The notes beneath the pieces were generated by a model. The model had not been told where the DNA came from. It saw nothing but the letters and a program-made list of their open reading frames with translations, and did not search any database. Shown here piece after piece: positions 43,067 to 63,259 of a DNA stretch of 64,000 nucleotides (position 1 is the first letter of the stretch; each line of letters starts with the position of its first letter). This DNA is from Cloeon dipterum (lineage: Eukaryota; Arthropoda; Insecta; Ephemeroptera; Baetidae), in NCBI RefSeq assembly GCF_949628265.1, contig NC_088788.1, positions 4,030,001-4,094,000 of the forward strand. Direction: 5' to 3'. The position numbers and the translations under genes are program-made.

Positions 43067-44496
43067 ATGAATTGGTCCAGGTTGTGCTCTGCTTTATGGA
43101 GCAAATCTCTCAGGTTTATTTTGACACCTGTCACCACGCAAATCTCGAGGACCGCCGTGCAACGGCTGTCACCTTCCTCCTGGTCTAGACGTTTTTGCTC
43201 ATTCTCGTCACCAAAGCAATTTCACAATCAAAATTACAGTAAATTTATTCTAATCTCTGGCGTAATGTCATTTTTGGGATTGGAAAAAGAGAAAGAGGAG
43301 AAAGATGATGAGCTGATAATGACTCTAAAAAGATCCGTCCTTTTAATGCAGGTTTGTGGGTTAATTTATTTAAAAATTAGTAATAAAATGTTAATGTGTT
43401 CATGCATGTGTGTTATGCAAAGTATAATAATTAGAGGGGCTAGACACACCTAAATTTTCGCGATTTCATTGAAACTTTTAGAAATGTTGTAAATTTCCAT
43501 CCTTTAACCATGTATGTATAAAGTTATGTGTGAATTTTTTTAGATCTGCCAAATGAGCTCATTAAGATCTGCTTAAATTAGTAATTAAAAGGACCTGAAT
43601 AATTCTTATTGTTAGATTAATCTATATTAAAATAATTTTTAGCAAGGGGACCTGGCCAAAGCTGAACAAATGCTACACTTGGCTCTGCGCTTGGCCCAGG
43701 AAAGGATGTCCGTGGATGGAATTACTTACACATATGACCTGATGGCGAATTTGGCGCTGGAGAGGGGTGAACTGGCGAAGGCAGAAAAGCTATTCCTGAC
43801 TGTGATGAATAGGCTTCTAGTCGCTGGAGCTCAAGAGAATGACAACAAAATCTTACATATGAGTATCAAGCTGGCAAACATCTTTGCCGACGGATTTTTT
43901 GAAGGGAAAGATGCAAGCAAGGCTCAGGAGCTGTGCTCCAAAGCACATAATGGATATGAGTGAGTTTAAAACTAACAGGAAATAATAAAATAATAATTTT
44001 GTTTTCAAGTTTTTGCAAAGAGAGGCTGCAGAAGAAAATTGACTCTGGTGACAACGACAGCGACACGTATCTGCTGCTCAGTTTGGCCTATGAGGGTGAA
44101 GGACGATTGTATGCAGGACAAGAGATGCTGCCTAAAGCCCGGCTAAGCTATGAAAAAGCACTCGAGTGGAGCAAAAGAGGCAAAGACACCGACGAGCGGA
44201 TGTCATCACTTCTTGGCTACCTCGGCTACATAAGCGGCATGCAAGCTGAAATTCCTGCTGCTATGCATTACCTGGAGGAGGCGATCGCGATTGCCAGGAA
44301 AAACAATGGTGAACAATTGCAATCAATGCTTGTTAATTTGGGTATGCTTAAATTATACAATGGAGCTCTGGCTGAAGCTAGAAACAGTTGCAAAGAGGGC
44401 TTTAATTTATCCCGACAGGCCAAAGACTCTGAAACGGAAAATGAAGCTGTTCGGTGTTTAGAAGAAGTTAATGTAGCTTTTAAAAATAAAAAATAA
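43067..44496 (+). CDS. TTC19: TTC19: mitochondrial tetratricopeptide repeat protein 19
   Basis: Mitochondrial protein of the inner membrane/matrix that helps complex III by clearing Rieske-protein fragments (known for the family). Exons 43067-43351, 43643-43959 and 44010-44496 join in frame to 362 residues (human about 380). The first ~50 residues are rich in Arg and Ser with no acidic residues, as in a mitochondrial presequence. The core begins with the family hallmark GDLAKAEQMLHLALRLAQ, then TYDLMANLALERGELAKAE, and continues as TPR-like helices containing YLLLSLAYEGEGRLY, KARLSYEKALEW and MHYLEEAIAIARKN. Introns are short (291 and 50 bp). A polyA signal lies at 44,657-44,662. It shares a divergent promoter with MELK. 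Confidence 0.93.
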
Positions 44497-45027: not shown

Positions 45028-45119
45028 CGCACCGCCTCTATAATTAACTACGCAGCTTTTGGCACAAAAACTTTACTGGTCATCGAGGATCAAAATATCT
45101 AAATTTGAAGATTAAAATA
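45028..45119 (-). pseudogene. Remnant of a fourth LRR-like copy (intron 1 fragment)
   Basis: Matches the part of intron 1 adjoining exon 1 in copies 2 and 3 (about 53,866-53,960 and 58,998-59,092). The shared core GCAGCTTTTGGCACAAAAAC continues to CAAAATATCT and TTTGAAGAT. At the point where exon 1 should follow, the sequence switches to the 3' end of copy 1. This indicates a further copy largely removed by deletion. Confidence 0.72.
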
Positions 45120-45126
45120 TAGAGTT

Positions 45127-47195
45127 TTAATAAACATATTTAATTTTCTCTCCGATCAAAATTCCACTTTCAGTATAACTGTCGAGAATGCTTATGAGTT
45201 TTTCATCCACGAACCAGCTGATTGATTCGTTGTTAATATTAGCGCCGGAGAAAAAGGCAGTCACGTCTGGAAACTCTTCATTAGTTGTCCTTCCATTCCT
45301 CAAACTTTTTGCAAGCGTGGAATATTCACTTCTTCGATCATTTAAGTAGAACTTCAAGGTCGTCAAATTGCTCAGGCACGCTGCCGCGCATTTGATGAAC
45401 TCAACGATTCCATTAAATAGGTCCACGTTGACGAAAAGTGCAAAGGATTCGACCTCCAGATCTATGACGAGAGTCTTGAGCTTCTGTAGGAAATCTTTCT
45501 CGGCCACTTTTGAAGTTAGTTTAATCAGATCTTCGAGGCAGGGGTCGCTCAGGATGACTTTCTCTAAGTCAGGCGCACTCAAAATATTCACCATCTCGTC
45601 GCTGCTTCCGTCCGGGCTGCGAATGAATATAGGAAAAATGAAGTTAAAACTGAAAATCCATAAATGAAAAACACATTTAAAATTATATGTGAAGATCACC
45701 ATAGGTATAAAAATGTATTTATAAAAAAAATATTTTTCGTATCGACTATTTAGACCATTTTGGGTGTTTTATGGAATTCTCGAGTTTGAAAAGTGGACCA
45801 TAAAAGCCTAATTTAAACTGGGTGAGTCGTGCGTAGGTGTCAAAAGGAAAAACAAACGACAGTCTGAAATTCCCAACCTTGTTGTAAAATAATACTTACA
45901 ACGAGAAATTCAATTCGACTTCTTTTAGACGAGCGTAAAATGTGATCGGTTCTGGGTCGTTGATGACTAGCCACAGCCGTAGTCTCTCAAGCAAAGGGCA
46001 AGCAGTGAAAATGTAATTTAAATTCAGGAACGGTTCCATCTGGCGGTCGTCGTGTTGGATGTTCAGTGCGTTTAATTTAGCTCCGAAGGTGTCAATAAAG
46101 CGGAACATAACCTCGGTCGGGAAGTCGAGCATAGTCAAGCTCTCAATATTGGTGAACTGCAGAATGTAATTCAAACTCTTCCAATCCCAGTCTGGGTCTT
46201 CGCACCAATGCATCTGAAATAATTGCAAGCGTTAAATGGACTTGTAACTATCAAAATAATATCTATTAAATAATTAATATCAATCATATTTTTGTACCAT
46301 CAAGTCAGTGACGTGAGGATGTGTTATGTGAATGTCCTCCTCTGGGTAATCGAACGGTATATTGATAAGTATCATTAAGTGTCGCAGATTTGAGTATCCA
46401 GGGACTACTTCATTTGGAGTAGAGGGGTCGTAATCTTCTTTCGGACGGAAGAGCTCAGAATACTGATGTAAAACATGCAAATTCGAAAGATTCCTCTTCC
46501 TCATGCACTCTATTTTAAGAGTTTCATTGTTCCTTGCCGTGTAGATAAACTCTTTCAAATTCGACATGCTTCTTTTCAATATTGCCGCACATTCGACACG
46601 ATCATAATTAAAATCGTCCAAGTCGTCAAAGCTGTCTGGGAAGTTGATACTGAGGATTTGCAGGCCTGGCAGATTTTCGCACAGTTGGAAAACGTCTTTT
46701 ATTTCGAAGCAGCACCATTCATCCAGCTGAAGGACCCGCAGATTTGTAAGCTGGTACAGCGCCTTCAACATCTCAGCATCCACGAGCGAATCGAATTTTC
46801 TGTAGTACCGACGTGTTTTGCTCGACACCAAAAGCTCTTCGATATTGGGAGTAAACTGCGAAATCCTAATCACTGCCTGCAAACAGTAGGCGAAATGATG
46901 AATAGAGATTCTAAATTATTCTTTTGTTAATACAAACCGATTTTAAATATTGGTATTTCAGCCGAATCGGACAGAAAGACAAAAAGGCGGTCAAGTCGAT
47001 GACCTTGAGACCAAGCGCCAAGTAGAGCTCCAGAGCAGGGCACATCAAGATTTTCATGTTCATTTCCTCCCGAATCAGACTCGTGCACTCATTAGTCATT
47101 AAGTATTTCACAACCTTCACAAGCATGGGTAAAGCTAAAAAATAAAATGTATAGAAATAAAATAAAAATTGACTGGAATTTTCTTTAATAAACAT
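45127..47195 (-). CDS. LRR/F-box-like paralogue, copy 1 (first exon replaced)
   Basis: Exons, 5' to 3': 47195-46938, 46876-46298, 46213-45900, 45616-45127. Exons 2-5 of the family are intact with conserved splice sites. The homologue of exon 1 (MADQDLFIVAKRM in the other copies) is absent, because similarity upstream stops near 47,330. The old intron 1 acceptor can be read through in frame from an ATG at 47,195, giving 546 residues with a hydrophobic start (FLFYFYTFYFLALP). A later ATG at 47,126 replaces a Leu codon of copies 2 and 3. Function unknown; leucine-rich pattern as in copies 2 and 3. It may be expressed with a new N-terminus or be a 5'-truncated pseudogene. Confidence 0.6.
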
Positions 47196-47767
47196 TGTTT
47201 TTTTTTATTTTTGCCTGCACGTAACGCCCCGCCAGCCGGAAATTTTTGGGGTTACGTGGTCAGCCGCTTAAGCCATACCGTGAATAGAAAAAAGAAGAAG
47301 AGAGCTCGTTGTCAGAACTGTGCCATAATACTTCAGACAATTATTTAATTTAAAACTAATGCATGAAATTTTGTTTTTGTGCAAAAATTTTCGATTAAAA
47401 AGTTCTTGCTGTAGTTTTTAGCCATTAAATTTTTTACCAATGGTCTCGTTTAATGATTAAATCAACGCAAGTGTTCTGGTATACGTGTATTATTTATGGT
47501 ACTATGCCGACACTGTTATTGATTCCTGCTGCTTTCAGGCCATCATATTAAAATTGCAATAAGGCTAAGTGTGCAGATCAACACATCTGTGCTTGTCTCA
47601 AGTGCTGGCCAAAATTGATAAGGACCCGCCCTGCGTGAATAATGAGAGATTAAGTCTCAAGGTCGTGGCAGTAAGTGGTGGGATTATACATCATAGGCTA
47701 TCTTGTATTGTCGACTGCTCAGAATTCATTCATTTTCACGACTGCTCGTGCTTTCTGCGTGAAAATA
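47196..47767. other. Copy 1 / EcKL intergenic region
   Basis: 47,196-47,330 is leftover intron 1 sequence of copy 1 (CCAGCCGGAAATTTTTGGGG, also in copies 2 and 3). From about 47,330 the sequence is unique and must hold the EcKL promoter. No exon 1 homologue found. Confidence 0.6.
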
Positions 47768-49025
47768 ATGGCTGAAGATTTGCGTACTTTTGTGACAAAG
47801 GAAGAGGTGCTGGCCGTCGCGCAGCAAATGCATGGAGCAGAGGTCGAGATTTCAGACTACGATGTGGAAAAGGGCACCAGCAGCGTGCAAGGCTTTCTCT
47901 CCAACATACTCAGGGTGAGCTTCAGGGCCAGGGTGGGCCAGCGGAACGTGACCTCCAAGTTTGTGGTGAAGAGGAAGCCGATCCTCGAGAGCCAGCTGTC
48001 GACGGTGGGCGAAATGCAGGCATTCGAAAACGAGATTGGCTTTTTCAAGCTCTGCGCGCCCCATCTGCGCGAACGGTGCCCTGACCTTCCGGCGGTCACC
48101 TGCTACCTGACCGACGAGAAGAACAGTATTATCTACATGGAGGACCTGAAAGAAAGTGGCTACGTCGCCCTGGTCAGGAACATTGGCGACCTCAAGCACG
48201 ACATTCTGACCGAGCGACACCTGGACCTGGTGATGCGCACCCTGGCCAAGTTCCACAGCGCCTCTCTAGGCATCGACTGGCTCGAGAAACTGCCCAGTCT
48301 CTTCAAAGAGGACGCCATGTTCACGTCAGGCGCCGAAATGATCAAAAATTTGTACGCCAATCTGCCGAGAAGGCGCTGGTACCGATCACCGAGCACCACT
48401 TTAAAGGAAACGCGATCACTTTTGCAGGAGCTCCCGATGGGTCACTTCCGAAGACTTTTTCCTGGCGCTCAAAGTCATCTGCGAGCCGGACCCTGCGGGC
48501 TTGAACGTCGTGTGCCACGGCGACGGCTGGGTCAACAACATGATGTTCAAGCTCGACCCTGACAGCGGAGAGCCGCTGAGCATCAAACTGATCGACTTTC
48601 AGATCTGCAGATACACGCCTGGCAACCGAGACCTGATGGACTTCTTGTACACGGTTTGCCCTGCTGAGGTGCGCAAGAAAAACGAAAAGCGGCTGCTGCG
48701 AGTGTACTGGGACACGTTTGTGGCTGAATGCAAAGAGCGCGGGGTGCCGGTGGCGCAGGACTGGGAGAAATTTTATCAGAATTTTGACCGAAACCGGGCC
48801 TTTGGTCTCATGATGGCGGTGTGCCTGCGTCCCTCGATTTTCGTGAAAGGCACGTTTCCCGAGGGTGACGAGGCTTTGACGGATGACCACATCAACACAG
48901 CACTCGAGGGGGGAAGTGAGGTCAGCGACATGATCAGGGAATTTGATCATAATCCAGAGTTTCGAGCCGAGATGATCAGCCTTATCGAGGAAACAGCTGA
49001 ATTGTTTTATAAATATTACGCTTGA
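47768..49025 (+). CDS. EcKL/CHK kinase-like protein with two frame breaks
   Basis: Member of the EcKinase-like (DUF1679/CHK) family of small-molecule kinases, related to choline and aminoglycoside kinases. Some insect members phosphorylate ecdysteroids; the substrate here is unknown. The start MAEDLRTFVT is followed by FVVKRKP, the probable ATP-binding lysine strand. Further on are IIYMEDLKESGYV, the Brenner motif HGDGWVNN (from about 48,516) and the metal-binding IDFQ (about 48,591). Intronless and visibly GC-richer than its neighbours. The frame changes twice, near the A5 run at 48,344-48,348 and the GGG at 48,439-48,441. Each fits loss of one base; adding two bases would give 419 residues, the usual family length. 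Between the breaks the sequence still encodes plausible kinase residues (ITEHHFKGNAITF). Either homopolymer assembly errors or a young pseudogene. Confidence 0.88.
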
Positions 49026-49238
49026 CCTTTTATTTGTCAAGTTGTGATAGAAATTATACATTATATATTAATCGTTGAATCAATGTACAGATTTCAATAA
49101 TGTTACATCAGGGCAAAACAATCAAACACGATTTTACCGATTATATACAAAAATGCAAGTGATTTTTTAATTTGAGTTTCTAAAATATGATACAATGTAC
49201 AATCATCTTTTGCGACTCGTCAAATGGATATATTTTGA

Positions 49239-49469
49239 CTAAACAGTCATATTTGGGGGTTTGTCATCATTATTGTCGTCTCGTTGCTGCTTATTTCCCT
49301 TTTTCTTCATCTCCTGATCCTTCTCCCACAATATGTCAAGCTCGATCTTCACTTCGTCATCGGTTGGCCTTCTGCCAAGCCGTTTTGTCAGCTCTATCAA
49401 TACTCCGCCGCGCCTCATGTTGTTGAAATAGCTTCTGGTAGACATAATTTTCTTTTGGTTTCCTCCCAT
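49239..49469 (-). CDS. Small basic hypothetical protein (76 aa)
   Basis: Not recognised. The terminal exon starts after a CAG acceptor at about 49,492 and its first ATG is at 49,469. The 76-residue product is Arg/Lys-rich (MSTRSYFNNMRRGGVLIEL) with an acidic helix containing RRPTDDEVKIELDILWEKD and a low-complexity Asp/Asn tail. There is no membrane segment. Two upstream exons, probably 5' UTR, fit the splice signals: one ending before GTAAGTGTG near 49,772 and one of about 100 bp between TTTTTTTAG (about 49,707) and GGGTAATTG (about 49,605). Neither has an ATG in frame. It converges with the EcKL gene; a minus-strand AATAAA overlaps the EcKL 3' end at about 49,028. It could instead be the last exon of a longer protein. 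Confidence 0.5.
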   Translation of the reverse strand: MGGNQKKIMSTRSYFNNMRRGGVLIELTKRLGRRPTDDEVKIELDILWEKDQEMKKKGNKQQRDDNNDDKPPNMTV

Positions 49470-49505
49470 TCTATTGTACTTCAGTGGAACGCTGGAAATT
49501 GTCAC

Positions 49506-50514
49506 AAAATTAAAATATTTGAATATTACAAAATTAATTTAAACAATTTCGTTCAGACTAAAAATTGTAATATGACTGTTTTATAAATGGTTTAAATTTC
49601 AATTACCCTTTATTTCAATCAAAAAATGCTATCGATAATCTTTCTACGAGTCCGGATTTCCAGTTGCTTAGCCGCAGTTTTGAAAACACCTATTCACGTA
49701 ATTCCTAAAAAAATATTTTTTCACATAATATATTAGCTCGTTTGGGAAGCACGCGGTAATCCTGACACACTTACGTTAAATGCTGAATTGTCCGATCCTT
49801 ATTAGAAGCACAGTTAAAAGATGCAGTTTAAACAGAGGGGACACGATGCGCGTAATAAAATTGACGAAGCGTCCGTGAAACATTCAATGCATGAGAGGGA
49901 AATGCTTATGGCCACAAATATTTCAAAACTCTCAAGCATCTTTATGTATATAGAAAGAAAAAATGTGTTTCCCTCATCTACACTGCATCGAAGTAGCTCT
50001 AACTTGCGAATATCCTTTTTCCTTACAGTGTTGCATGTCGTAAATTTATCTATCATCCCAGCTTCTAGGAAAATAATCTATTCAAAATATTTACCATAAA
50101 CAAATATGTATTGGCATACAGCAGGCCAAACATTAAATATATGATCGGAGCTGTAAATAAAAATGGATTTATTGCTTAAAATATATATTAGTGCTATTAA
50201 ATTTATTTTATTATATTTCATAGAAAATCTTGCCTCCTTATACTTTAATAAATTGGATATTAGTTTAAATTGAAGGTTTCAGCCGCGTAATTGTAGGCAA
50301 CGGTTAGCTGAACCGGATTAGCCTATATCTGGCGTCTAGCGCGCGGCTAATAAACTTTTGATTAATGGCCGAAAGGTGGAAGGGTCGGTGGCCAATTTTT
50401 TCTGTGGCATTTTTCGATTCTTCTCTCACGACTTTGACCGGCGCTGCTGGCGTGGCTGGAGCAGCTTTTAGCCAAACGGTGGCTGGAGGCTGACCACACG
50501 TGATTCAATATATT
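49506..50514. other. 5' UTR exons of small gene and intergenic DNA
   Basis: Contains the probable 5' UTR exons of the small minus-strand gene. Frames of about 80-90 codons lie on both strands at 49,814-50,099; neither can be linked by good splice sites to a known family. The rest is unique AT-rich DNA up to the start of the duplicated unit. Confidence 0.4.
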
Positions 50515-51210
50515 AGCTATGGCGGTCACGGCTAGCTGAGACTTTTAGTTGAAATAGTTAATTTATTGAAAAAAGGGATAAAAAGTTGGATAAAAACTTA
50601 TTTGGGGTATACTATTAAATGAATATGGAAAGCTGCAATTTTAACTCACGCTCTGCTGAGCTCAAAAACAAATAACCACAACACTCTGCGTAAACACATA
50701 GTCTCAAATTTAAAATTATGTAAAATATAAATTTATTGCATCTAAAAGACTTAATATATATATAAAAAACAATGCGGATTTAAGTTTCCTAAAACAATTA
50801 TTAATTCATGGTAAAAGCTAGCCCTCCGTATTCATATATTTTTTAGATTTCGTCAAATTAATTGAATTTTAATCGTAAATTTTGCTGTAACTGTACGTGC
50901 GTGCCTACATTTCAATCAATACTCACACACCTTAATTATTATAATAATGATGATACACATCCTCGCGCAAGCACCGTCAGTGACCCAACAAACTGCAAGG
51001 AACATTAAAAATATAAACAACACAATAGTTTAGGAGTATAATGTCATCTTTGGATTTTTCAAAAAATTCTTGTCACTCTTTTATTATTTCCAAGTGTTAT
51101 TGGACTTAATCAAGGAAAATATGTGAAAAAAGTGTTGCACAAATTTTTAAACTAATAAAACATTTTTATTACCTAAGCATTTCATTCATAACCTTCATAA
51201 TTATGGATAT

Positions 51211-54113
51211 TTAATAAACATATTTAATTTTCTCTCCGATCAAAATTCCACTTTCAGTATAACTGTCGAGAATGCTTATGAGTTTTTCATCCACGAACCA
51301 GCTGATTGATTCGTTGTTAATATTAGCGCCGGAGAAAAAGGCAGTCACTTCTGGAAACTCTTCATTAGTTGTCCTTCCATTCCTCAAACTTTTTGCAAGC
51401 GTGGAATATTCACTCCTTCGATCATTCAAGTAGAACTTCAAGGTCGTCAAATTGCTCAGGCACGCTGCCGCGCATTTGATGAACTCAACGATTCCATTAA
51501 ATTGGTCCACGTCGACGAAAAGTGCAAAGGATTCGACGTCCAGATCTATGACGAGAGTCTTAAGCTTCTGTAGGATTTCTTTCTCGGCCACTTTTGAAGT
51601 TAGTTTAATCAGATCTTCGAGGCAGGGGTCGCTCAGGATGACTTTCTCAAAGTCTGGCGCACTCAAAATATTCACCATCTCGTCCCTGCTTCCATCCGGG
51701 CTGCGAATGAATATAGGAAAAATGAAGTTAAAACTGAAAATCCATAAATGAAAAACACATTTAAAATTATATGTGAAGATCACCATAGAGGCATAAAAAT
51801 GTATTTGTTTAAAAAATATTTTTCGTATCGACTGTTTAGACCATCTCGAGTGTTTTATGGAATTCTCGAGTATGAAAAAGGGGATCATAAAAGCCTCCTT
51901 AAAATTGGGTGATTCGAGCGTTGGTGTCAAAAAGAAAATCCGGTCGCACAGGAAAAATAAACGACAGTCTGAAATTCCCAACCTTGTTGTAAAATAATAC
52001 TTACAACGAGAAATTCAATTCGACTTCTTTTAGACGAGCGTAAAATGTGATCGGTTCTGGGTCGTTGATGACTAGCCACAGCCGTAGTCTCTCAAGCAAA
52101 GGGCATGCAGTGAAAATGTAATTTAAATTCAGGAACGGTTCCATCTGGCGGTCGTCGTGTTGGATGTTCAGTGCGTTTAATTTAGCTCCGAAGGTGTCAA
52201 TAAAGCGGAACATAACCTCGGTAGGGAAGTCGAGCATAGTCAAGCTCTCAATTTTGGTGAACTGCAGAATGTAATTCAAACCCTCCCAAGTCCAATCTGG
52301 GTTTTCATACCAATGCATCTGAAATAATTGCAAGCGTTAAATGGACTTGTAACTATCAAAATAATATCAATTAATCGATTAAATAATTATTATCAATCAT
52401 ATTTTTGTACCATCAAGTCAGTGACGTGAGGATGTGTTATGTGTATGTCCTTCTCTGGCGGGTAGTCGTAGAAAACATTGATATGAATCATTAAGTGTCG
52501 CAGATTTGAGTATCCAGGAACTACTTCATTTGGAGTAGAGGGGTCGTAATCTTCTTTCGGACGGAAGAGCTCAGAATACTGATGTATAACGTGCAAATTC
52601 GAAAGATTCCTCTTCCTCATGCACTCTGTTCTAAGAGTGCCATTGTTCCTTGCCGTGTAGATAAACTCTTTCAAATTCGACATGCATCTTTTTAATACTG
52701 CCGCACATTCGACTCGATCAGTATCAAAATCGTCGTAGTCGTCAAAGCTGTCTGGGAAGTTGATGCTGAGGATTTGCAGGCCTGGTAGATTTTCGCACAG
52801 TTGGAAAACGTCTTTTATTTCGAAGCAGCACCATTCATCCAGCTGAAGGACCCGCAGATTTGTAAGCTGGTACAGCGCCTTCAACATCTCAGCATCCACG
52901 AGCAAATCGAATTTTCTGTAGAACCGCGGGGTTTTGCTCGACACCAAAAGCTCTTCTATATTGGGAGTAAACTGCGAAATCCTAATCACTGCCTGCAAAT
53001 CGTAAGCGAAATGAGAAATAGAGATTCTAAATTATTCTTTTGTTAATACAAACCGATTTTAAATATTGGTATTTCAGCCGAATCGGACAGAAAGACAAAA
53101 AGGCGGTCAAGTCGATGACCTTGAGACCAAGCGCCAAGTAGAGCTCCAGAGCAGGGCACATCAAGATTTTCATGTTCATTTCCTCCCGAATCAGACTCGT
53201 GCACTCAGTAGTCATTAAGTATTTCACAACCTTCAAAAGCAAGGGTAAAGCTGAAAATTAAAAATAAGAAAATTAAACTAAAAATTGACTTGAATTATCT
53301 TTAATAAACATTGTTTTTTTTTTATTTTTGCCTACATAAAAGGTAGCAATCAAGCCACGCAACGGCCCGCCAGCCGGAAAATTTTGGGGTTACTTGGTCA
53401 GCCGCTTAAGCCATACCGTGAATATGGCATTGGCAGAAGAGAGCTCATTGTCAGAGCTGTATGTGCCATGTACGCAAATCCATCGGTTAAATGGCAGAAA
53501 AAAATTGGCCCATTTTTTTCTTTTGGCAGAAATTGCTCAACGGGCTGGGAGGCGCACCGGCGCCGACTCGCTACTGGTTTGCACCTTTCCAGCATGCGTG
53601 ATTTGGCTTCACGGGACAAATGTCTAGCGTTTCAAAAAAAGTCCTCGGAGCGAAGGCAAGTGGCCCTTGAGTGGGCTGGGTCCCTGTGCGGCCTGGTGCG
53701 CCCATGTTATCCGTTCGCGGTGTTATTGGGACCCGGGTTTCAACATTCGTGCTAGTGCAGTGTGCGCCCTTCCCGGTCCTCAGACAGAGATAAAAAGAGC
53801 AAAAAAAAGAACAATCAAACTTCATTTTAAAAATTTATCAGTCACGCCAACGGCCAGTGAAATTGCTCATCCACCGCCTAAAATTAATTGCGCAGCTTTT
53901 GGCACAAAAACGTTACTGGTCGTTATCTTGCATCAAAATATCTCAATTTGAAGATAAAATGTTTAACTTACGAAGGTCTGTGATGTATTGAATTTTGGCC
54001 GCGGCTGTAGGTGAAAGGCCGAAATTCAAAGCAATTCGCCGAATGCGGTTCTCGCAGTAGCGCGAACTGAACTGCATCCTCTTGGCCACAATAAACAGAT
54101 CCTGGTCTGCCAT
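51211..54113 (-). CDS. LRR/F-box-like paralogue, copy 2 (intact)
   Basis: Exons 54113-53972, 53250-53054, 52992-52411, 52318-52005 and 51700-51211 join in frame to 574 residues. The N-terminus MADQDLFIVAKRMQFSSRY leads to LPLPLLLKVVKYLMTNE-like sequence resembling an F-box first helix. Leucine-rich segments follow (LTNLRVLQLDEW, LCENLPGLQILSINF, LLERLRLWLVIND, LSNLTTLKFYLN) with LRR-like spacing. There is no signal peptide or membrane segment. The pattern suggests a cytosolic F-box/LRR-type adaptor, but this is inference from leucine periodicity. All introns have GT donors and AG acceptors. A minus-strand AATAAA lies at 51,165-51,170, about 41 bp past the stop. Intron 1 is longer than in copy 3 because of an extra ~288 bp. 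Confidence 0.78.
53531..53818. mobile_element. ~288 bp insertion in copy 2 intron 1
   Basis: Flanking sequence (TTGGCAGAA on the left, CTTCATTTTAAAAATTTATC on the right) is continuous in copy 3 at about 58,932-58,970 with only about 11 bp between. The extra sequence is GC-rich and ends in an A-rich tract, as a SINE might. No convincing tRNA-like promoter boxes or target duplication were found, so its class is open and deletion from copy 3 is an alternative. Confidence 0.5.
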
Positions 54114-55240
54114 TATGTGAAACAATGGCTAGAACTATGTTGTAGCACGAGCTCGATCAAAGGTTGCCCCTGTTTAATGCCAGCAAAGCAGGGCAATCGA
54201 TTGGGAAATGTAGAAGGCTGGCTATTTGCCCGCAGTTTGTTTTTTATAAAGGCCCACACGTGCGATTCAGGGAGAAACGAAGCAAACAACCATCAGGTGG
54301 TTTCCTCGAGTGGGGGGAGGGTGAACTAAATTAAAATAGTTTAGGGGTAGGTGGCGGGAAACGTGCGTGCCAGCTATAGTTTAATTGTATTGTGCGTTAA
54401 ACGCATGAGGTTCATCTTATACGGCTTGATATCCTTTTAGAACACAAATTTATAAATTTTATTTGTACTGTTTTGTTGTTTGAACCGTATATTTTCTTCA
54501 ATATTTTTCTTTAAATTGGTTGTAAATTTGTTTATAAATTATAGCGGATACCATTGAATTTTGAAACTGTATGTTGAAAATATTGATCTCAGAGTGTGTA
54601 AACTGAAATTCCTACGTGATAAGTGATAAAATAGGTATTATTAGTAAAACACATAACTTATAGAAATTTTGTACGTAGGGTACTCCCGGTATTCATTTAC
54701 CATATTATTTGTCCATTATTATATATAAATAAAAGAACCGAATTATTAAAAAAAAAGGTTAGGAGATTCTGCAATGCAAAAGAGCATCTGTGATTCAACT
54801 CAAAACAATAAAGGTCGAAAATTACGAATATTGCTTCGATATATACAGGAGAGGTTTCTGCATTTACCCATTGTTTTTCGATAATAAGAAAACGAACAAA
54901 ATCAACCAAGGGTCAAAATTATAGAATTAAATCAAAGTGAAATTTTTCCGATCAGATGATCGAGATGATCATATTAACCGGCGGGCACGGTTGGCCGAGA
55001 CTTCTTTAGTTGGTGAATAATTATATCGAAAAAAGAAATACAAATTTTGGTAAAATATTTATGGTATACAATAAATTAAATGAATATGAGAAACTGCACT
55101 TTACGCTCTGCTGAGCTCAAACGCTCATACACAATAACTATAATGATAGTTAACATTCTGCGTAAACATTCTCAAATTTAAAATATAGTAGACTTAAAAA
55201 TTTAGAGGTTGTAAGTTTCCTGAAATTGCACACTTTTATT

Positions 55241-56223
55241 CATGGTGTCGTGACACGAATCGGCCTGATTTTCCCCAACATGCGCCTGCAGACCTAAGGC
55301 GCGGCCGCCGGACGCTCCGGCCGCCACCCAAGAACCACACCGTTTTATGTATAAAATTGGTCTTTCTTTATTTTTCCTTAAACGATAAGCGAGCACTGTT
55401 TATCCTAAAGTAACTTGGGCGCCCCAAACTGTAATTTTCCCATCTCTGGCTGGCACGTGACACCCCAAGTGGTGTCACACCACCCTCGAGCTTCGAGGCG
55501 GCTTTCGCCGGCTCGGTCCGCAGACGGTTTCCTGGCCTCTGCCGAGCAGCATCTCTCTCCTGCGCCTCTGCCTATTAGTTACCCCTCTTTTGCCTTGCCA
55601 GTCACAGTTAGAATTTATCTTTTATTTTCAAAGTCTCGTCCGCGTAACTTATCTTCAGTAACGTAATTAAGGCCAATTTTGCTCTTGAAAGTCTTTTTCT
55701 CTCTGTTAGAGTCACTCTGAATAATAAAACCAAACAACCTAATTTTTAAGCCCAATTCTTCGCTGTTTGTCTTTCTCTTGACCATGCAGCAATACAATTA
55801 AAGGAAAAAGTAATCTGAATATTTCATCATTCATCATTAATTAAAGGCTCACTTAAGGAGCAGCTCTGTCTTAAAACTCATTTGATTTAAAGTGATATTA
55901 CCGCGGCCTGTCCTGATTATTCTCGGCTTGTGGCCTCGCGTGGCTCTCGACGCTGAATAATTAAGATTGGCTCCGGGACTTACCAATTTTTTACAAGTAA
56001 ATCTTAGTTCGACTGATCTTGAATTATCAATAACCGAGAGACGATTGATCGTGAGAGACAGCCGCCGCGACGATGAGATAGAGGGATGGCACGGCGGCAG
56101 CGAGAAGGCTCGGCGAGGCCAAGAGGCCGCTACAGTTTTGCGGGCTGTAAGCTCTATAAGGGGTCGGAGGGAACTAATCATGAATTTTGGTATAGCTGTG
56201 TTGCAGATATTCGCAACACATGG
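55241..56223. mobile_element. Solo LTR with 5-bp target duplication
   Basis: LTR 55,246-56,218 (973 bp) begins TGTCGTGACA and ends TTCGCAACA, i.e. TG...CA termini. It is flanked by CATGG at 55,241-55,245 and 56,219-56,223. The unduplicated site is preserved in unit 2 as one CATGG at 50,807-50,811 in matching context. Inside are a TATAAAA (55,350-55,356), a GTGACACC/GGTGTCAC hairpin near 55,456 and AATAAA near 55,723. There is no internal retroelement coding sequence, so LTR-LTR recombination has left a single LTR. Gypsy or BEL/Pao origin is possible; the class cannot be decided from an LTR alone. Confidence 0.9.
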
Positions 56224-56641
56224 TAAAAGCTAGCCCTCCCCATTTACATATTTTTTAGATTTCGTCAGTAAATCGATTGTTTTCGTAAAATTTGCCGCAA
56301 TTGTGCGTGTGCCAACAGCTCAATCCCAACTCCCGCACTTTAATTACTCTGATAATGATGACGGACATCCTCGCACAAGCACCGTCCGCAAACAACAACC
56401 TGCAGCAGGTTGATTGAAAATATTTAAATGGCACAGTAATTTAGAGGTAATGTCATCCTTGAATTGTTCAAATATGTATTATTGTGAGCCTACTTTTCTT
56501 GTCACTCTTTTATTATTTCCAATGTCATGAGACTTAATCAGGGAAAATATGTATGCGAAGAAAACAAGTGTTGCAAAAGTCTTTTAAAATAATAAAACAT
56601 TATTATTAACTATACATTTCATTCATAATTATATAAGATAT

Positions 56642-59244
56642 TTAACAAACATATTTAATTTTCTCTCCGATCAAAATTCCACTTTCAGTATAATTGTCGA
56701 GAATGCTTATGAGCTTTTCATCCACGAACCAGCTGTTTGATTCGTTGTTAATATCAGCGCCAAAGAAAAAGGCAGTCACGTCTGGAAACTCTTCATTAGT
56801 TGTCCTTCCATTCCTCAAACTTTTTGCAAGCGTGGAATATTCACTCCTTCGATCATTCAAGTAGAACTTCAGGTTCGTCAAATTGCTCAGGCACGCTGCC
56901 GCGCATTTGATGAACTCAACAATTTCATTAAATTGGTCCACGTTGACGAAGAGTGCAAAAGAATTGACATCCAGTTCTATGACGAGAGTCTTGAGCTTCT
57001 GTAGGATTTCTTTCTCGGCGACTTTTGAAGTTAGTTTAATCAGATCTTCGAGGCAGGGGTCGCTCAGGATGACTTTCTCTAAGTCAGGCGCACTCAAAAT
57101 ATTCACCATCTCGTCCTTGCTTCCGTCCGGGCTGCGAATGAATATAGGAAAAATGAAGTTATAAACTGATAATCCATAAATTAAAAACATTACATTTGAA
57201 ATTATATGTGAAGATCCCCATAGGTATAAAAATGTATTTATAAAAAAATATTTTTCGTATCGACTATTTAGACCATTTTGGGTGTTTTATGGAATTCTTG
57301 AGTTTGAAAAGTGGACCATAAAAGCCTAATTTAAACTGGGTGAGTCGTGCGTAGGTGTCAAAAGGAAAAACAAACGACAGTCTGAAATTCCCAACCTTGT
57401 TGTAAAATAATACTTACAACGAGAAATTCAATTCGACTTCTTTTAGACGAGCGTAAAATGTGATCGGTTCTGGGTCGTTGATGATTAGCCACAGCCGTAG
57501 TCTCTCAAGCAAAGGGCATGCAGTGAAAATGTAATTTAAATTCAGGAACGGTTCCATCTGGCGGTCATCGTGTTGGATGTTCAGTGCGTTTAATTTAGCT
57601 CCGAAGGTGTCAATAAAGCGGAACATAACGTCGGTCAGGAAGTTGAGCATAGTCAAGCTCTCAATATTGGTGAACTGCAGAATGTAATTCACACCCTCCC
57701 AATCCCAATCTGGTTCTTCCCACCAATTCATCTGAAATAATTGCAAGTGTTAAAAGGACTTGAAACTTCCAAAATAATATCTATTAATCAATTAATAAAT
57801 AACATATTAACAATCATATTTTTGTACCATCAAGTCAGTGACGTGAGGATGTTTTATGTGAATGTCCTCCCATGGGTAATCGGACGATATATTGATATGT
57901 ATCATTAAGTGTCGCAGATTTGAGTATCCAGGGACTACTTCGTTTGGAGTAGAGGGGTCGTAGTCTTCTTTCGGACGGAAGAGCTCAGAATACTGATGTA
58001 AAACATGCAAATTCGAAAGATTGCTCATGCACTGTGTTCTAAGAGTGCCATTTCTCCTTGCCGTGTAGATAAACTCTTTCAAATTCGACATGCTTCTTTT
58101 TAATACTGCCGCACATGCGACACGATCAAAATAAAAATCGTCGAAGTCGTCAAAGCTGTCTGGGAAGTTGATACTGAGGATTTGAAGGCCTGGCAGATTT
58201 TCGCACAGTTGGAAAACGTCTTTTATTTCGAAGCAGCACCATTCATCCAGCTGAAGGACCCGCAGATTTGTCAGCTGGTACAGCGCCTTCAACATCTCAG
58301 CATCCACGATCGAATCGAATTTTCTGTAGAACCGAGGGGTTTTGCTCGACACCAAAAGCTCTTCTATGTTGGGAGTAAACTGCGAAATCCCAATCACTGC
58401 CTGCAAATAGTAAGCGAAATGATGAATAGAGATTCTAAATTATTCTTTTGTTAATACAAACCGATTTTAAATATTGGTATTTCAGCCGAATCGGACAGAA
58501 AGACAAAAAGGCGGTCAAGTCGATGACCTTGAGACCAAGCGCCAAGTAGAGCTCCAGAGCAGGGCACATCAAGATTTTCATGTTCATTTCCTCCCGAATC
58601 AGACTCGTGCACTCATTAGTCATTAAGTATTTCACAACCTTCAAAAGCAAGGGTAAAGCTGAAAAATAAAATTTAGAAAATTAAACTAAAAATCTAAAAA
58701 TTGACAGGAATTTTCTTTAATAATTTTTTTTTTAATTTTGCCTTCATAAAAGGTAACAATCAAGCCACGTAACGCCGCGCCAGCCGGAAATTTTTGGGGT
58801 TACGTGATCAGCCGCTTAAGCCATACCGGGAATATGGCATTGGCAGAAAAGAGCTCGTTGTCATCAGAACTGTGCCATGTGCGCAAATCCATCGGTTAAA
58901 TGGCAGAAAAAAATTGGCCCCTTTTTTCTTTTGGCAGAAGCACAAGCGAACTTCATTTTAAAAATTTATCAGTCACGCCAACGGCCAGTGAAATTGCTCA
59001 TCCACCGCCTAAAATTAATTGCGCAGCTTTTGGCACAAAAACGTTACTGGTCGTTATCTTGCATCAAAATATCTCAATTTGAAGATCAAATTTTTAACTT
59101 ACGAAGGTCTGTGATGTATTGAAGTTTGGCCGCGGCCGTTGGTGAGAGGCCGAAATTCAAAGCAATTCGCCGAATGTGGTTCTCGCAGTAGCGCGAACTG
59201 AACTGCATCCTCTTGGCCACAATAAACAGATCCTGGTCTGCCAT
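56642..59244 (-). CDS. LRR/F-box-like paralogue, copy 3 (intact)
   Basis: Exons 59244-59103, 58658-58462, 58400-57828, 57731-57418 and 57131-56642 join in frame to 571 residues with the same intron phases as copy 2 (1, 0, 0, 2). Near-identical to copies 1 and 2 in exon 2 and most of exons 3-5, but different in short patches: FDDFDDFYFDRVA, INISSDYPWEDIH and the exon 4 start MNWWEEPDWDW. Three residues (RKR or similar) are missing after TQCM relative to copies 1 and 2. Unlike copy 2 it has no close canonical polyA signal. Its 3' flank separates it from the solo LTR by about 420 bp. Function unknown. Confidence 0.78.
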
Positions 59245-60200: not shown

Positions 60201-60330
60201 GCTTGTGATTGGCTGAAAACCAATCTATATAGTCACGTGATCATGACGTCATGACATGTGATGGGCAACCAGCAGCTAACGCAGGGAAACACCTATATGG
60301 ATACACCCACTTGTGCATTTCACTGCGACA
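60201..60330 (+). promoter_or_regulatory. Ac45 promoter: CCAAT, CLEAR-like E-box, CRE
   Basis: Within 130 bp of the start codon: inverted CCAAT (GATTGG, 60,207-60,212); GTCACGTGAT (60,232-60,241), 9 of 10 bases of the CLEAR consensus GTCACGTGAC bound by TFEB/MITF; a full CRE palindrome TGACGTCA (60,244-60,251) inside TCATGACGTCATGA; and a further E-box CATGTG (60,255-60,260). V-ATPase genes are known Mitf/TFEB targets in animals including flies, which fits the downstream gene. Confidence 0.72.
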
Positions 60331-63259
60331 ATGGCGGCCCGTTGGCAAGTCTTACCTTCTGTGCTTGTCATATTTTTGGCATCTACGCTTATTCAGGCCG
60401 ACAATGGCTTGAATCTCGATGTGCCGAACGTCGAGGAGAGTGTACCGGTGCTGCTGTGGCAGTCACCGGCTGCAAAAGGCCAAGTGGACATCGTGAAAGA
60501 TGTGCCCAAGAAGACGGCCGCCGGGCTGGAAAAGGTGGACGATGAATTGTTCACCAACTTACTCAAGGTATGTTAATTTAAATACCATCACTCTAGAGGT
60601 TGTTTTGAGACTTGCGAATTCAAGATTTCTCTCCAACGGACCGAAATCTTGTTTTTCTTTTTAGATTTTTAATTAGAAAAATCGATGTTGACTCCAACAT
60701 CTGTTTTGTTAATTAATGGAAATTGAAAAACACTTTAAATTTTAAATAGATAACAACCTGTATTTTTCTTTCAGGAGAAAATAAGTTCGAAGGGAAGCAA
60801 ACCGCTTGTCCTCTTGTTCCTGGAGGAGAATCTCAGTTCGGAAGACTTTGTCACAGACGAAGACAAGGTTTTCCCCCATCTGCAGAAAATTATCGACAAG
60901 TCTCGTGACACCATTTACCTGCCATCTGTTGTCTCGCCCACCACTGCCCTGAAGGAACTTGACCAGGATGGCTACACCTGGTTGTCGTATAACTCTGAAG
61001 AACTGCCAGAGAGCGAGTCCATCATCCTGGTCATCAACCTGGACGATGCCCAGGAGGGCGAGAGCAGACCCCAGATGCTTTCCAGGCACGATGAGAAAAT
61101 CAGCTCGATCTACAGTAGCGCCCTGAAGGTATACTTTTATTTTAAACTTATTTAGGTGCTGGAATTCGTGAATCTGAAATAAAATAAGCCCCATTCTAGT
61201 ATTAGCTGGAACTTAGATTTAGGAATTTTGTGTAACACTTTTTAAAATTCTTCGGAGAGTTAAAATACAAAAATCTTTAGCAAAAAATGTTGTCTGGCAT
61301 TCTGCATTTTGTGGTTTTCTAACTCTCTTAATTTTAAACCGACCATTATGTGTCTGAATAATTGCCAAAATTTATTTGTTTGAAATGTATCGATTAACCA
61401 ACAATACTGTTTTAAATCCAGCTCATTTGGGGGTATTTTCTTCCTCAGTAATTGAGGCAAAATACCAATAATAGTATTAATTTTTCAAACTTATTATCAG
61501 GTGTACAGCAACGTACTTGGAATCTACACTTCGCGTTACTCGTCCTGGAACTCTGCCGAAGTCTCGGTTCACAGAATACGGCGTCAAGCTGCTCCGTCGA
61601 CCTCTGTCACTTACAACAACGGCACTTTTTTACATGACAGTAACAACAAGGTGGTCATGTACGTCAGAGGCGACCCGATATTGATAAAGGGCAACACCCC
61701 GATCAGGTTGAATCTGACCAGCGCCACCACCATCACTGTCGACGAGAAGCAAGACATGCAAACCTTCAGCGTCGTCTTCTCTCAGCCGTCCAAGGTCGGA
61801 TCAAAAGGTTATTTTTTAATTGATTTTTAATAAGTTGAAAAATCGCAGGTGACCCTTCGGTTCCGCTTCCCAATTCTGTTCACTGGCTACTGGAACATCG
61901 GAGAAGTGGAGGTGCAGAACGGTTCCGACGCGCCGATTGTTCTGTCGCTCATGGACAACATCACTGTTCCTATGAACTTCTCATATCACTGTAGTGCTTA
62001 CAACACAACCTTCAGAGAGGGCACCAATGCACTCGTGCTGACTGAATTCCAGGTAGGATGAGTTAATTAATGCGGCTTTGATATTTTTTCAATTTTTTTG
62101 CTCAACAAATTTTGGGGTTTTTCTAATTTTGACTTGTATTTGCACTGCATTGTTTTTTAATAGAGGTTTTGTTCAATCTATTATTAAATTCACCACCAAT
62201 TGTTGAAAAGAAGGGTTTTATAAAAGGGAGGGTTAGAATTTGTCCAGTTCTCTCTTTGTATTATTTTTTTTCGATGGCCAGTAATGTGAAATCCTTTGCG
62301 GTGTTGATTTTGTGTCCTGCTGACGAGATTCTATAGGCCGTAAAGTAGTTGTATGCTTCAAGAATGATCTCCTTTTATTTTTCCCGCTCAACCTAAAAGA
62401 AATATATTTTTAATTAAAAGTCTTGAGGAAATTTTGTCCGAAAATATGTTTATGCTTGGGGATTGTGGTCAATCCATTAATTTTTACGCAGCTAACAATA
62501 AGTAGAAGGCAAGTGTCAACATTTCTTGAAAAATCAAGAAATTTAAAAGGAAAATTGAGTGTTTTCACACCAAAAGAGTACTCAAAATGCGGAAAATCAA
62601 TGGTTTGCTTTGAAATGTTGATATTTCTTTTAAACTTTCAATGTTCTCAAGTAAATTTGAGTTTTTCTAACCTATCATTTCTATTTTTTCGTCCATCGAA
62701 TGGTTAAAAAACTCGATAAACTAATAATCACTAAGCTTAGAAAAAATGCTGCAAAAAGGGAATGTGCTGGCTAAAATTTCGTTCCAAATAATATTTCATT
62801 GCACTGTGTCGAATTAATTTATAAAAATTATTGTTTTTTCATCTTTGAACACGGCTATTTAAGTCTAAAAACAACTAAAATTCGTCTTGAAAATAATAAT
62901 AGAAATTGAAAACTAATTTTGAATATTGTCAGTGACGTTTTTCTTCTCTAAAAATAATATTGATTTTCACTACTAACATGAGCATCCGGAATTAATTCAT
63001 AGCTGTGAAACCAAAAATTTAATCCCTGTCCTTATTTTTTTGTCAATTTCAGGTGCAGCCATTCAACTACCATCTGCGTTTCAACGACGCCTACGACTGC
63101 AGCTACTTCTTCACGATCCCCATCTTGTCTGGTCTGTTCTGCACCATTTTCCTGGCCATCATCATGGCGTACGGCCTGTCGATGATCCTGGACATCAAGA
63201 CCAACGACCGATTCGACGATCCCAAGGGCAAGACCATCACTGTCACTGCCACAGATTAA
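60331..63259 (+). CDS. ATP6AP1: V-ATPase accessory subunit S1 (Ac45)
   Basis: Type I membrane glycoprotein that assembles with the Vo sector of the V-ATPase and aids its assembly and sorting. Exons 60331-60567, 60775-61128, 61501-61794, 61849-62052 and 63053-63259, all introns phase 0, give 431 residues. A signal peptide is visible (hydrophobic VLPSVLVIFLASTLI, then QADNG). A furin-like RIRR lies at 222-225, as expected for a processed Ac45. Several N-glycosylation sites follow (NLT, NITV, NFSY, NTTF). The conserved membrane-proximal region contains FTGYWNIGEVEV and YDCSYFF, then one transmembrane helix (about 383-409) and a short tail ending DDPKGKTITVTATD, typical of the family. The start is the first ATG giving a signal peptide. 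A polyA signal lies at 63,920. Confidence 0.95.

Follow-up and report, generated by a model that had tools for sequence, protein, structure and literature searches.

Three tandem copies of a leucine-rich repeat gene

We analyzed a 64,000-nucleotide stretch of the genome of the mayfly Cloeon dipterum (contig NC_088788.1, positions 4,030,001 to 4,094,000; hereafter the window, in whose numbering positions are given) and found three minus-strand copies, c1, c2 and c3, of a leucine-rich repeat (LRR) gene. They run from position 45127, the last base of the c1 stop codon, to 59244, the first base of the c3 start codon. With five exons each and GT/AG introns, c2 and c3 are intact and encode 574 and 571 amino acids, respectively. 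The remaining copy, c1, has exons 2–5 only, with 525 amino acids open from exon 2, and is probably decaying, being without exon 1. The lengths of exons 2–5 are equal modulo three across the three copies, and protein identity is 92% between c2 and c3 and 93% between c1 and c2. A preliminary description of this DNA had given the three copies a common exon structure, which is true of exons 2–5 but not of exon 1, missing in c1. The three copies are a young tandem group in a very large LRR family of one genome. Their features, all on the minus strand, are as follows.

59103..59244: c3 exon 1; start codon, N-terminal helix and first base of the split proline codon of the LP motif (a homologous exon 1 is present in 10 automatically modelled paralogues)
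58462..58658: c3 exon 2; remainder of LPLPLLLKVVKYLM (Cullin-2-box-like), then the first LRR; of all exons, it differs least among c1–c3
57828..58400: c3 exon 3; LRRs 2–7 and start of LRR 8; contains patches 1 and 2
57418..57731: c3 exon 4; rest of LRR 8 up to the strand of LRR 12; patch 3 at its start
56642..57131: c3 exon 5; final LRRs, C-terminal tail and stop
53972..54113: c2 exon 1 (gene model)
53054..53250: c2 exon 2 (gene model)
52411..52992: c2 exon 3 (gene model); patches 1 and 2
52005..52318: c2 exon 4 (gene model); patch 3
51211..51700: c2 exon 5 (gene model)
46938..47134: c1 exon 2 (gene model); the copy is 5'-truncated
46298..46876: c1 exon 3 (gene model); patches 1 and 2
45900..46213: c1 exon 4 (gene model); patch 3
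45617..45899: c1 intron 4; conversion signal (near-identity to c3 intron 4)
45127..45616: c1 exon 5 (gene model)
45030..45116: intron 1 relic directly beyond the c1 stop; 84% identity over 90 bases to about 59003–59090

Read from the sequence, the protein consists of 15 leucine-rich repeats of 21–38 residues that begin with LxxLxL or a close variant of it. Pfam LRR_14 was detected in three of eight family members (best E 6.9e-8) and LRR_At5g56370 in four of the eight (best E 2e-4); c3 itself fell under the cut-offs of both models in the Pfam scan. When a family profile was compared with the PDB, TIR1 was the best match, at an E value of 6.4e-9 summed over stretches that are each weak singly. 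The profile of a sister branch of the family gave weak matches to TIR1, Skp2 and FBXL17 (E 0.022 to 0.3). The LRR assignment of the preliminary description is confirmed by the repeats themselves, with the LRR_14 matches in agreement.

Amino acid differences cluster in loops of the repeats

The three copies had been described as near-identical sequences broken by three short variable patches. All three patches exist, occupying residues 199–211 (patch 1), 277–298 (patch 2) and 305–320 (patch 3) of c3. The amino acid differences are clustered, as had been claimed: 57 of the 523 codons common to c1–c3 differ in amino acid, and 26 neighboring pairs lie within three residues of each other, while 16.4 would be expected (p = 0.00075). 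Codons with synonymous differences only, 30 in number, are unclustered (four pairs versus 4.7 expected, p = 0.74).

Since the patches had been picked by eye on c1–c3, they were retested in three other paralogue groups (L017/L023, L024/L025 and L026–L029). There, the proportion of nonsynonymous differences (pN) in the patches was 4.43 times that in the rest of the protein, a value reached by none of 5000 random placements, and the corresponding synonymous proportion (pS) was 2.63 times that of the rest (p = 0.0024). In this part of the family, the patches are therefore an enduring feature. Alignment error near indels was rejected as a source of the signal, as dropping indel-near columns altered little.

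Placed on the repeat register, patch 1 covers positions 14–26 of repeat 4, patch 2 positions 2–23 of repeat 7, and patch 3 positions 5–20 of repeat 8. The patches thus sit in three of the 15 repeats, mostly C-terminal to the strand. Across all repeats, the nonsynonymous rate was 1.15 at positions 6–19, after the strand, compared with 0.69 elsewhere (p = 0.0004, rates rotated within repeats). The same held for the 12 repeats without a patch, at 0.89 compared with 0.56 (p = 0.0014). Synonymous rates did not differ between positions 6–19 and the rest, either in all repeats (p = 0.16) or in the 12 patch-free ones (p = 0.22). The 6–19 window was picked after the table had been seen; windows set in advance gave p = 0.11 (positions 6–9), 0.018 (6–12) and 0.019 (6–14), the last becoming 0.0058 when the patch repeats were removed. 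In TIR1, long intra-repeat loops contribute to the hormone- and substrate-binding surface (PMC4030839, excerpts). The location of the patches in LRR loops is consistent with an interaction surface, as judged from the repeat pattern.

Gene conversion and probable selection at the patches

Conversion between copies is plain. Intron 4 differs by 1.8% between c1 and c3, and by 6.7 and 8.2% between c2 and these two. Site patterns along the exons and introns of c1–c3 switch 92 times rather than the expected 121, a number matched in none of 5000 permutations; a GENECONV-like run test restricted to the exons of c1–c3 gave no pair with p < 0.05. Among L026–L029, found at two places separated by 0.23 Mb, L027 and L029 share a tract of 15 consecutive polymorphic sites (alignment columns 201–217) that covers patch 1 (columns 201–214). 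Of 149 sites, by contrast, only 33 differ between L029 and L028 but 94 between L029 and L027. Conversion between divergent alleles, one of two explanations offered in the preliminary description, is supported by this tract, by intron 4 of c1 and c3, and by the 2.6-fold patch pS outside the original sample. The raised pS inside the patches fits imported tracts, or homogenization blocked by selection at the patches.

The other explanation, diversifying selection, stands in part. Pooled omega (dN/dS) was 1.66 for patch 1, 0.50 for patch 2, 0.75 for patch 3 and 0.45 for the rest of the protein. A uniform dN/dS below 1 across the patches, named at the outset as evidence against selection, was not what we observed, as patch 1 lies above 1 and patches 2 and 3 below it. 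Nor was an omega clearly above 1 obtained over all patches together, for which the bootstrap median was 0.76 with an interval of 0.46–1.25. Whole-gene omega ranged from 0.26 to 0.97 in all 55 pairs. A grid-based, FUBAR-like site scan, which takes no account of recombination within exons, returned seven sites with posterior above 0.9, two of them in patches, together with 106 purified sites. Site-wise dN/dS is weakened by conversion.

Comparison with introns provided a second yardstick. Nonsynonymous change in the patches exceeded the divergence of introns 2–4 in all four close pairs tested (Fisher p 2e-6 to 0.019). For L024/L025, the values were 13.6% and 2.5% (p = 2e-6). The p values were 0.019 for c1/c2, 0.014 for c2/c3, and 0.0005 for c1/c3, in which intron 4 looks converted and lowers the yardstick. 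The c1–c3 pairs are non-independent and the patches were chosen on them, which leaves L024/L025 as the only unbiased pair of the four. In the more distant L017/L023 and L026–L029, patch change was about equal to intron divergence, and these groups therefore add no support for an excess over introns. Our findings make some positive selection on the loops probable, with selection and conversion each contributing in part.

The N-terminal module

No significant match to the N-terminus was found among Pfam and PDB sequences. The earlier statement that no described family has this N-terminus holds for these collections, and motifs of the sister branches point to a VHL-box-like region. In the window branch (c2, c3 and 15 paralogues), exon 1 encodes a helix-like stretch, xxRIRxIAxxFG. 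The codon that spans exons 1 and 2 encodes proline and is split after its C in all 17 window-branch genes as well as in the sister genes L041, L042 and L048. In the window branch, this junction gives LPxxLLxKV; c1, having no exon 1, lacks the proline of this LP motif. Exon 1 of the three sister genes and of related exons contains stretches such as SLENLAVRDI and SLLELSRRKI.

We searched these regions with consensus patterns for the BC-box, (S,T,P)Lxxx(C,S,A)xxx-hydrophobic, and for the Cullin-2-box that follows it, hydrophobic-Pxx-hydrophobic-xxx-hydrophobic (PMC4878042, excerpts). A strict BC-box was present in 22 of 42 sister-branch exons 1 (shuffle mean 1.3, maximum 6), and in 34 of 42 if N or G was allowed first (shuffle mean 2.1, maximum 7). 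The Cullin-2-box pattern occurred at the exon 1/2 junction in 16 of the 17 window-branch proteins, L033 being the exception, and in all three sister genes. A canonical BC-box in the window proteins themselves was rejected, with no strict match in the 17 N-termini, c2 and c3 included. A relaxed form with G or N first did occur in 11 of the 17, in a GLSPTAAAKI-like stretch; it was given no weight, as the other members are without it.

Profile comparisons were made within the same genome. The sister exon 1 profile scored 17.4 against 13 SOCS boxes, above all 100 column shuffles (maximum 12.3), at a probability of only 19.7%; against the F-box it did no better than shuffles. The window N-terminus reached a probability of 1.0% against the SOCS boxes, a score equaled by five of 100 shuffles. 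Against 20 F-boxes it aligned very weakly over 14 columns, corresponding to F-box helix 1, with a score of 18.8 above all 100 shuffles (maximum 17.4) and a probability of 8.9%. The control comparison of two unrelated boxes, F-box and SOCS, gave 6.8%. Homology of exon 1 between the window and sister branches would be argued from place, phase, junction and similar first residues rather than from a significant score.

The proteins had been called F-box-like, a label that we do not retain. Pfam F-box matched one of 10 N-termini (E 0.048) and one of eight full-length proteins (E 0.12), both times short of its cut-off, with the 14-column match at the LP helix remaining. The genome contains 30 F-box places, and none, compared by eye, is at a place where exon 3 of the family was found.

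Family size and genome distribution

Translated genome searches returned at least 128 matches for exon 3, 83 for exons 1–2, 149 for exons 4–5 and 122 for a divergent member, three of the four counts being lower bounds, with E up to 1 for exons 1–2 and up to 0.001 for the other three. Merging gave about 154 or more family places in 55 clusters, 14 of them with at least three members, where 154 counts places about 3 kb or more apart rather than genes. Positions were entered by hand at 1-kb resolution, 127 from the 128 exon-3 rows and 85 from the 122 divergent-member rows, leaving out apparent extra exons of the same gene. On the five large contigs (C1–C5), the places are concentrated towards the ends: 85% of them are in the outer 20% on each side, compared with 40% expected (none of 20,000 simulations by cluster).

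Of 23 complete, automatically built paralogue models, 21 have intact frames; the script imposed exon phases and avoided stops near borders, and 11 further chains were incomplete. The tree and subsequent counts exclude two models: L047, with one stop, and L018, with 69, whose exon chain had continued past an incomplete copy into its neighbor. A tree of 24 proteins joins c1–c3 to eight close paralogues (100/100), with the deeper branches outside. In most of the distant paralogues, identity is 41–63% in exon 2 and 24–41% in exon 3.

Three further regions deserve mention. The sister-branch exon 1 probe had 91 genome matches at E up to 1, and 22 of them (E 3.9e-4 to 0.8) fall within 33.87–34.09 Mb of contig C4; 21 are outside the count of 154, and one place only coincides with exon-3 LRR matches. 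At C2:6345388-6387883, four family copies have identical exon-5 scores, and the exon-3 matches of three of them score identically at a spacing of exactly 13,533 bases (6358906, 6372439 and 6385972); this is either an assembly repeat or a tandem array of very recent origin. At C2:10.106-10.136 Mb, four fragments about 8–11 kb apart (L019–L022) comprise little beyond exon 4, with a piece of exon 5 in two of them, and are relics of copies or of unequal crossing-over.

Among the papers listed in searches of an open-access library, none gave an account of this family for mayflies. The terms "LRR", "F-box" and "leucine-rich" are absent from the main text of PMC7250882 (Almudi et al., 2020) and of PMC11491810. 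An expanded LRR superfamily has been reported in a springtail (PMC10432511, excerpts).

Flanks of the array

Exon 1 of c1 was not found: in a blastn search of the window, the exon 1 flank matched c3, c2 and the intron 1 relic, and otherwise gave short matches without weight. Upstream of c1, homology stops, and an ecdysteroid-kinase-like gene lies on the opposite strand. Given this end of homology and the intron 1 relic beyond the c1 stop, the array was probably cut and rejoined; the relic at 45030-45116 is perhaps a trace of a further, lost copy.

The gene that occupies the expected place of c1 exon 1 is an intronless, ecdysteroid-kinase-like (EcKL, PF02958) gene at 47767-49025 on the plus strand, and its two halves lie in separate frames (E 3.8e-15 and 1.2e-25). 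At C5:22346817, a relative within an open frame of 448 residues shows 76% identity across 194 residues, and the window gene may be a degenerate inserted copy. A plus-strand neighbor at 43643-44496 encodes a tetratricopeptide repeat (TPR) protein, with TPR models under their cut-offs, which we take to be TTC19-like. Open frames at 60280-61830 on the plus strand presumably encode a protein resembling the V-ATPase S1 accessory subunit; three pieces of them that were scanned had no Pfam match.

Discussion

Our findings very probably describe an LRR family subject to gene conversion and loop hypervariability. As to what its members do, the reading that we favor, at a probability of roughly 45%, is that they are Elongin/Cullin-2-type LRR substrate receptors with diversified loops, of which the window genes would form a derived branch. 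For the window branch itself, the odds of a ligase-receptor role are lower than for the family. Under the favored reading, the proteins would act inside the cell as substrate receptors of a Cullin-RING ubiquitin ligase, docking to Elongin C and Cullin 2 through an N-terminal module composed of the BC-box helix and the LPxxLxxK Cullin-2-box, and selecting the target through the LRR loops. The family would have been enlarged by tandem duplication, duplication and conversion would reshuffle the loops, and selection would retain some of the new loop variants. The window branch, with LPxxLxxK but without the BC-box consensus, would either dock otherwise or have stopped being a ligase subunit.

Several observations weigh against this reading. 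No window-branch N-terminus contains a strict BC-box. The 42 sister exons (40 of the 91 probe matches and two others) were picked up through their similarity to a single BC-box exon and are related and non-independent, and they therefore show conservation of a motif rather than 42 independent cases. The profile probability of 19.7% for sister exon 1 against SOCS boxes is low, and that for the window N-terminus against the sister exon 1 profile is only 1.8%. Among the regions compared, exon 1 has the highest mean nonsynonymous rate (1.31, compared with 0.92 in the LRRs and 0.73 in exon 2), an odd property in a docking helix. In c1–c3, exon 2 shows one to three nonsynonymous and zero synonymous differences, and its likeness may therefore reflect recent homogenization, not constraint. 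As for adaptive loops, the patch omega interval contains 1 and patch pS is raised; conversion or loose constraint therefore explains part of the pattern.

The N-terminal evidence also bears on two other readings. The family could consist of F-box-type receptors in which exon 2 is a very diverged F-box, with LPxxLLxKVVxxLM as helix 1, docking to Skp1 ahead of TIR1/FBXL-like LRRs. LPxxLLxK does stand in the position of an F-box, directly ahead of the LRRs, and the TIR1 match of the family profile, the weaker TIR1, Skp2 and FBXL17 matches of the sister branch, the above-shuffle score against the genome's F-boxes and the two marginal Pfam values all point the same way. However, the alignment extends over 14 columns only and the second half of an F-box is missing, whereas the genome's own F-box set, split into two halves, aligns with itself at 99.5%. 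Moreover, none of the 30 F-box places coincides with an exon-3 family place, a Skp1 domain was found at one genome place only, and the BC-box motifs of sister exon 1 would be needless in an F-box protein. We regard this reading as unlikely. Slightly less so, though still doubtful, is that the window branch comprises LRR recognition proteins with no ligase role, such as binders, decoys or immune-type receptors, whose loops diversified after the docking helix was lost. The absence of the BC-box from all 17 members would agree with this, as would the open exons 2–5 of c1 in spite of its missing exon 1, and the fast evolution of exon 1. Set against it are the retention of LPxxLxxK in 16 of the 17 members and the better conservation of exon 2 in distant paralogues, which suggests a docking role.

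A mostly neutral history of birth and death, with the patches as loosely constrained loops over which conversion spreads change and no adaptive recognition, is improbable. LRR loops are variable in many proteins, and the patch omega (median 0.76, interval including 1), the raised patch pS and the whole-gene omega below 1 in every pair are all compatible with such a history. It is opposed by the excess of nonsynonymous patch change over introns in the four close pairs, by the omega of patch 1 and by the intact frames of 21 of 23 models. Uniform relaxed evolution as the whole explanation is rejected on the out-of-sample patch test, the repeat-register test and the comparison of patches with introns.

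Under the Elongin/Cullin-2 reading, PRAME of mammals is the closest counterpart in both anatomy and evolutionary mode, and the Caenorhabditis F-box genes are a further one in mode. The PRAME family is a multi-copy, rapidly evolving LRR family with positively selected sites clustered on one face, for which conversion has been considered (PMC1262708, excerpts), and PRAME binds Elongin C and associates with Cullin 2 (PMC3584020, excerpts). Our genes resemble these BC-box LRR subunits of Cullin-2 ligases in forming a multi-copy, fast-evolving LRR family, a likeness by description and not by PRAME sequence; they differ in having no BC-box consensus in the window branch, in being five-exon invertebrate genes, and in occupying more loci than the human PRAME genes named in those excerpts. 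LRR-1, ZYG-11/ZER1 and FEM1 genes are few and conserved, unlike the large, fast-evolving family here. As VHL-box receptors of Cullin-2 ligases, they share with it the BC-box and Cullin-2-box consensus and, in LRR-1, an LRR substrate domain (PMC4878042, excerpts). No protein of the LRR-1, ZYG-11/ZER1 or FEM1 type was among the PDB matches of the family and sister-branch profiles. TIR1/COI1 and FBXL proteins are similar in length (594 amino acids, compared with 571 here) and include the best PDB profile match, but the proteins here have no F-box domain at cut-off. APL1 of Anopheles is an immune gene with a small paralogue group and without the N-terminal module described here. It is likewise an LRR gene with conversion between paralogues, by which its diversity has been explained (PMC9222773, excerpts). 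In the Caenorhabditis F-box expansions, genes lie in tandem arrays, the docking domain is under purifying selection and dN/dS peaks in the target-binding region (PMC8665587, excerpts); unlike here, they have an FBA2/FTH target domain and a clear F-box.

A bolder extension, tentative and less probable than the reading on which it builds, is that this insect maintains a repertoire of about 150 or more Cullin-2-type LRR degradation receptors near chromosome ends. Conversion would swap short loop cassettes among their loci, making the family a germline generator of new target specificities, directed for instance at pathogens, selfish elements or rival reproductive proteins, and one branch would have lost the Elongin-binding helix while retaining the recognition half. 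Fast-evolving families of ubiquitin-ligase receptors are known from nematodes, plants and mammals, and their targets are mostly unknown. A comparable LRR family in an insect-type genome of compact size, with 11 close paralogues differing in defined loops, would make it testable whether conversion passes recognition cassettes between receptors and what those receptors recognize. It would also mean that Elongin-based receptors, and not F-box receptors alone, can expand in this manner outside mammals.

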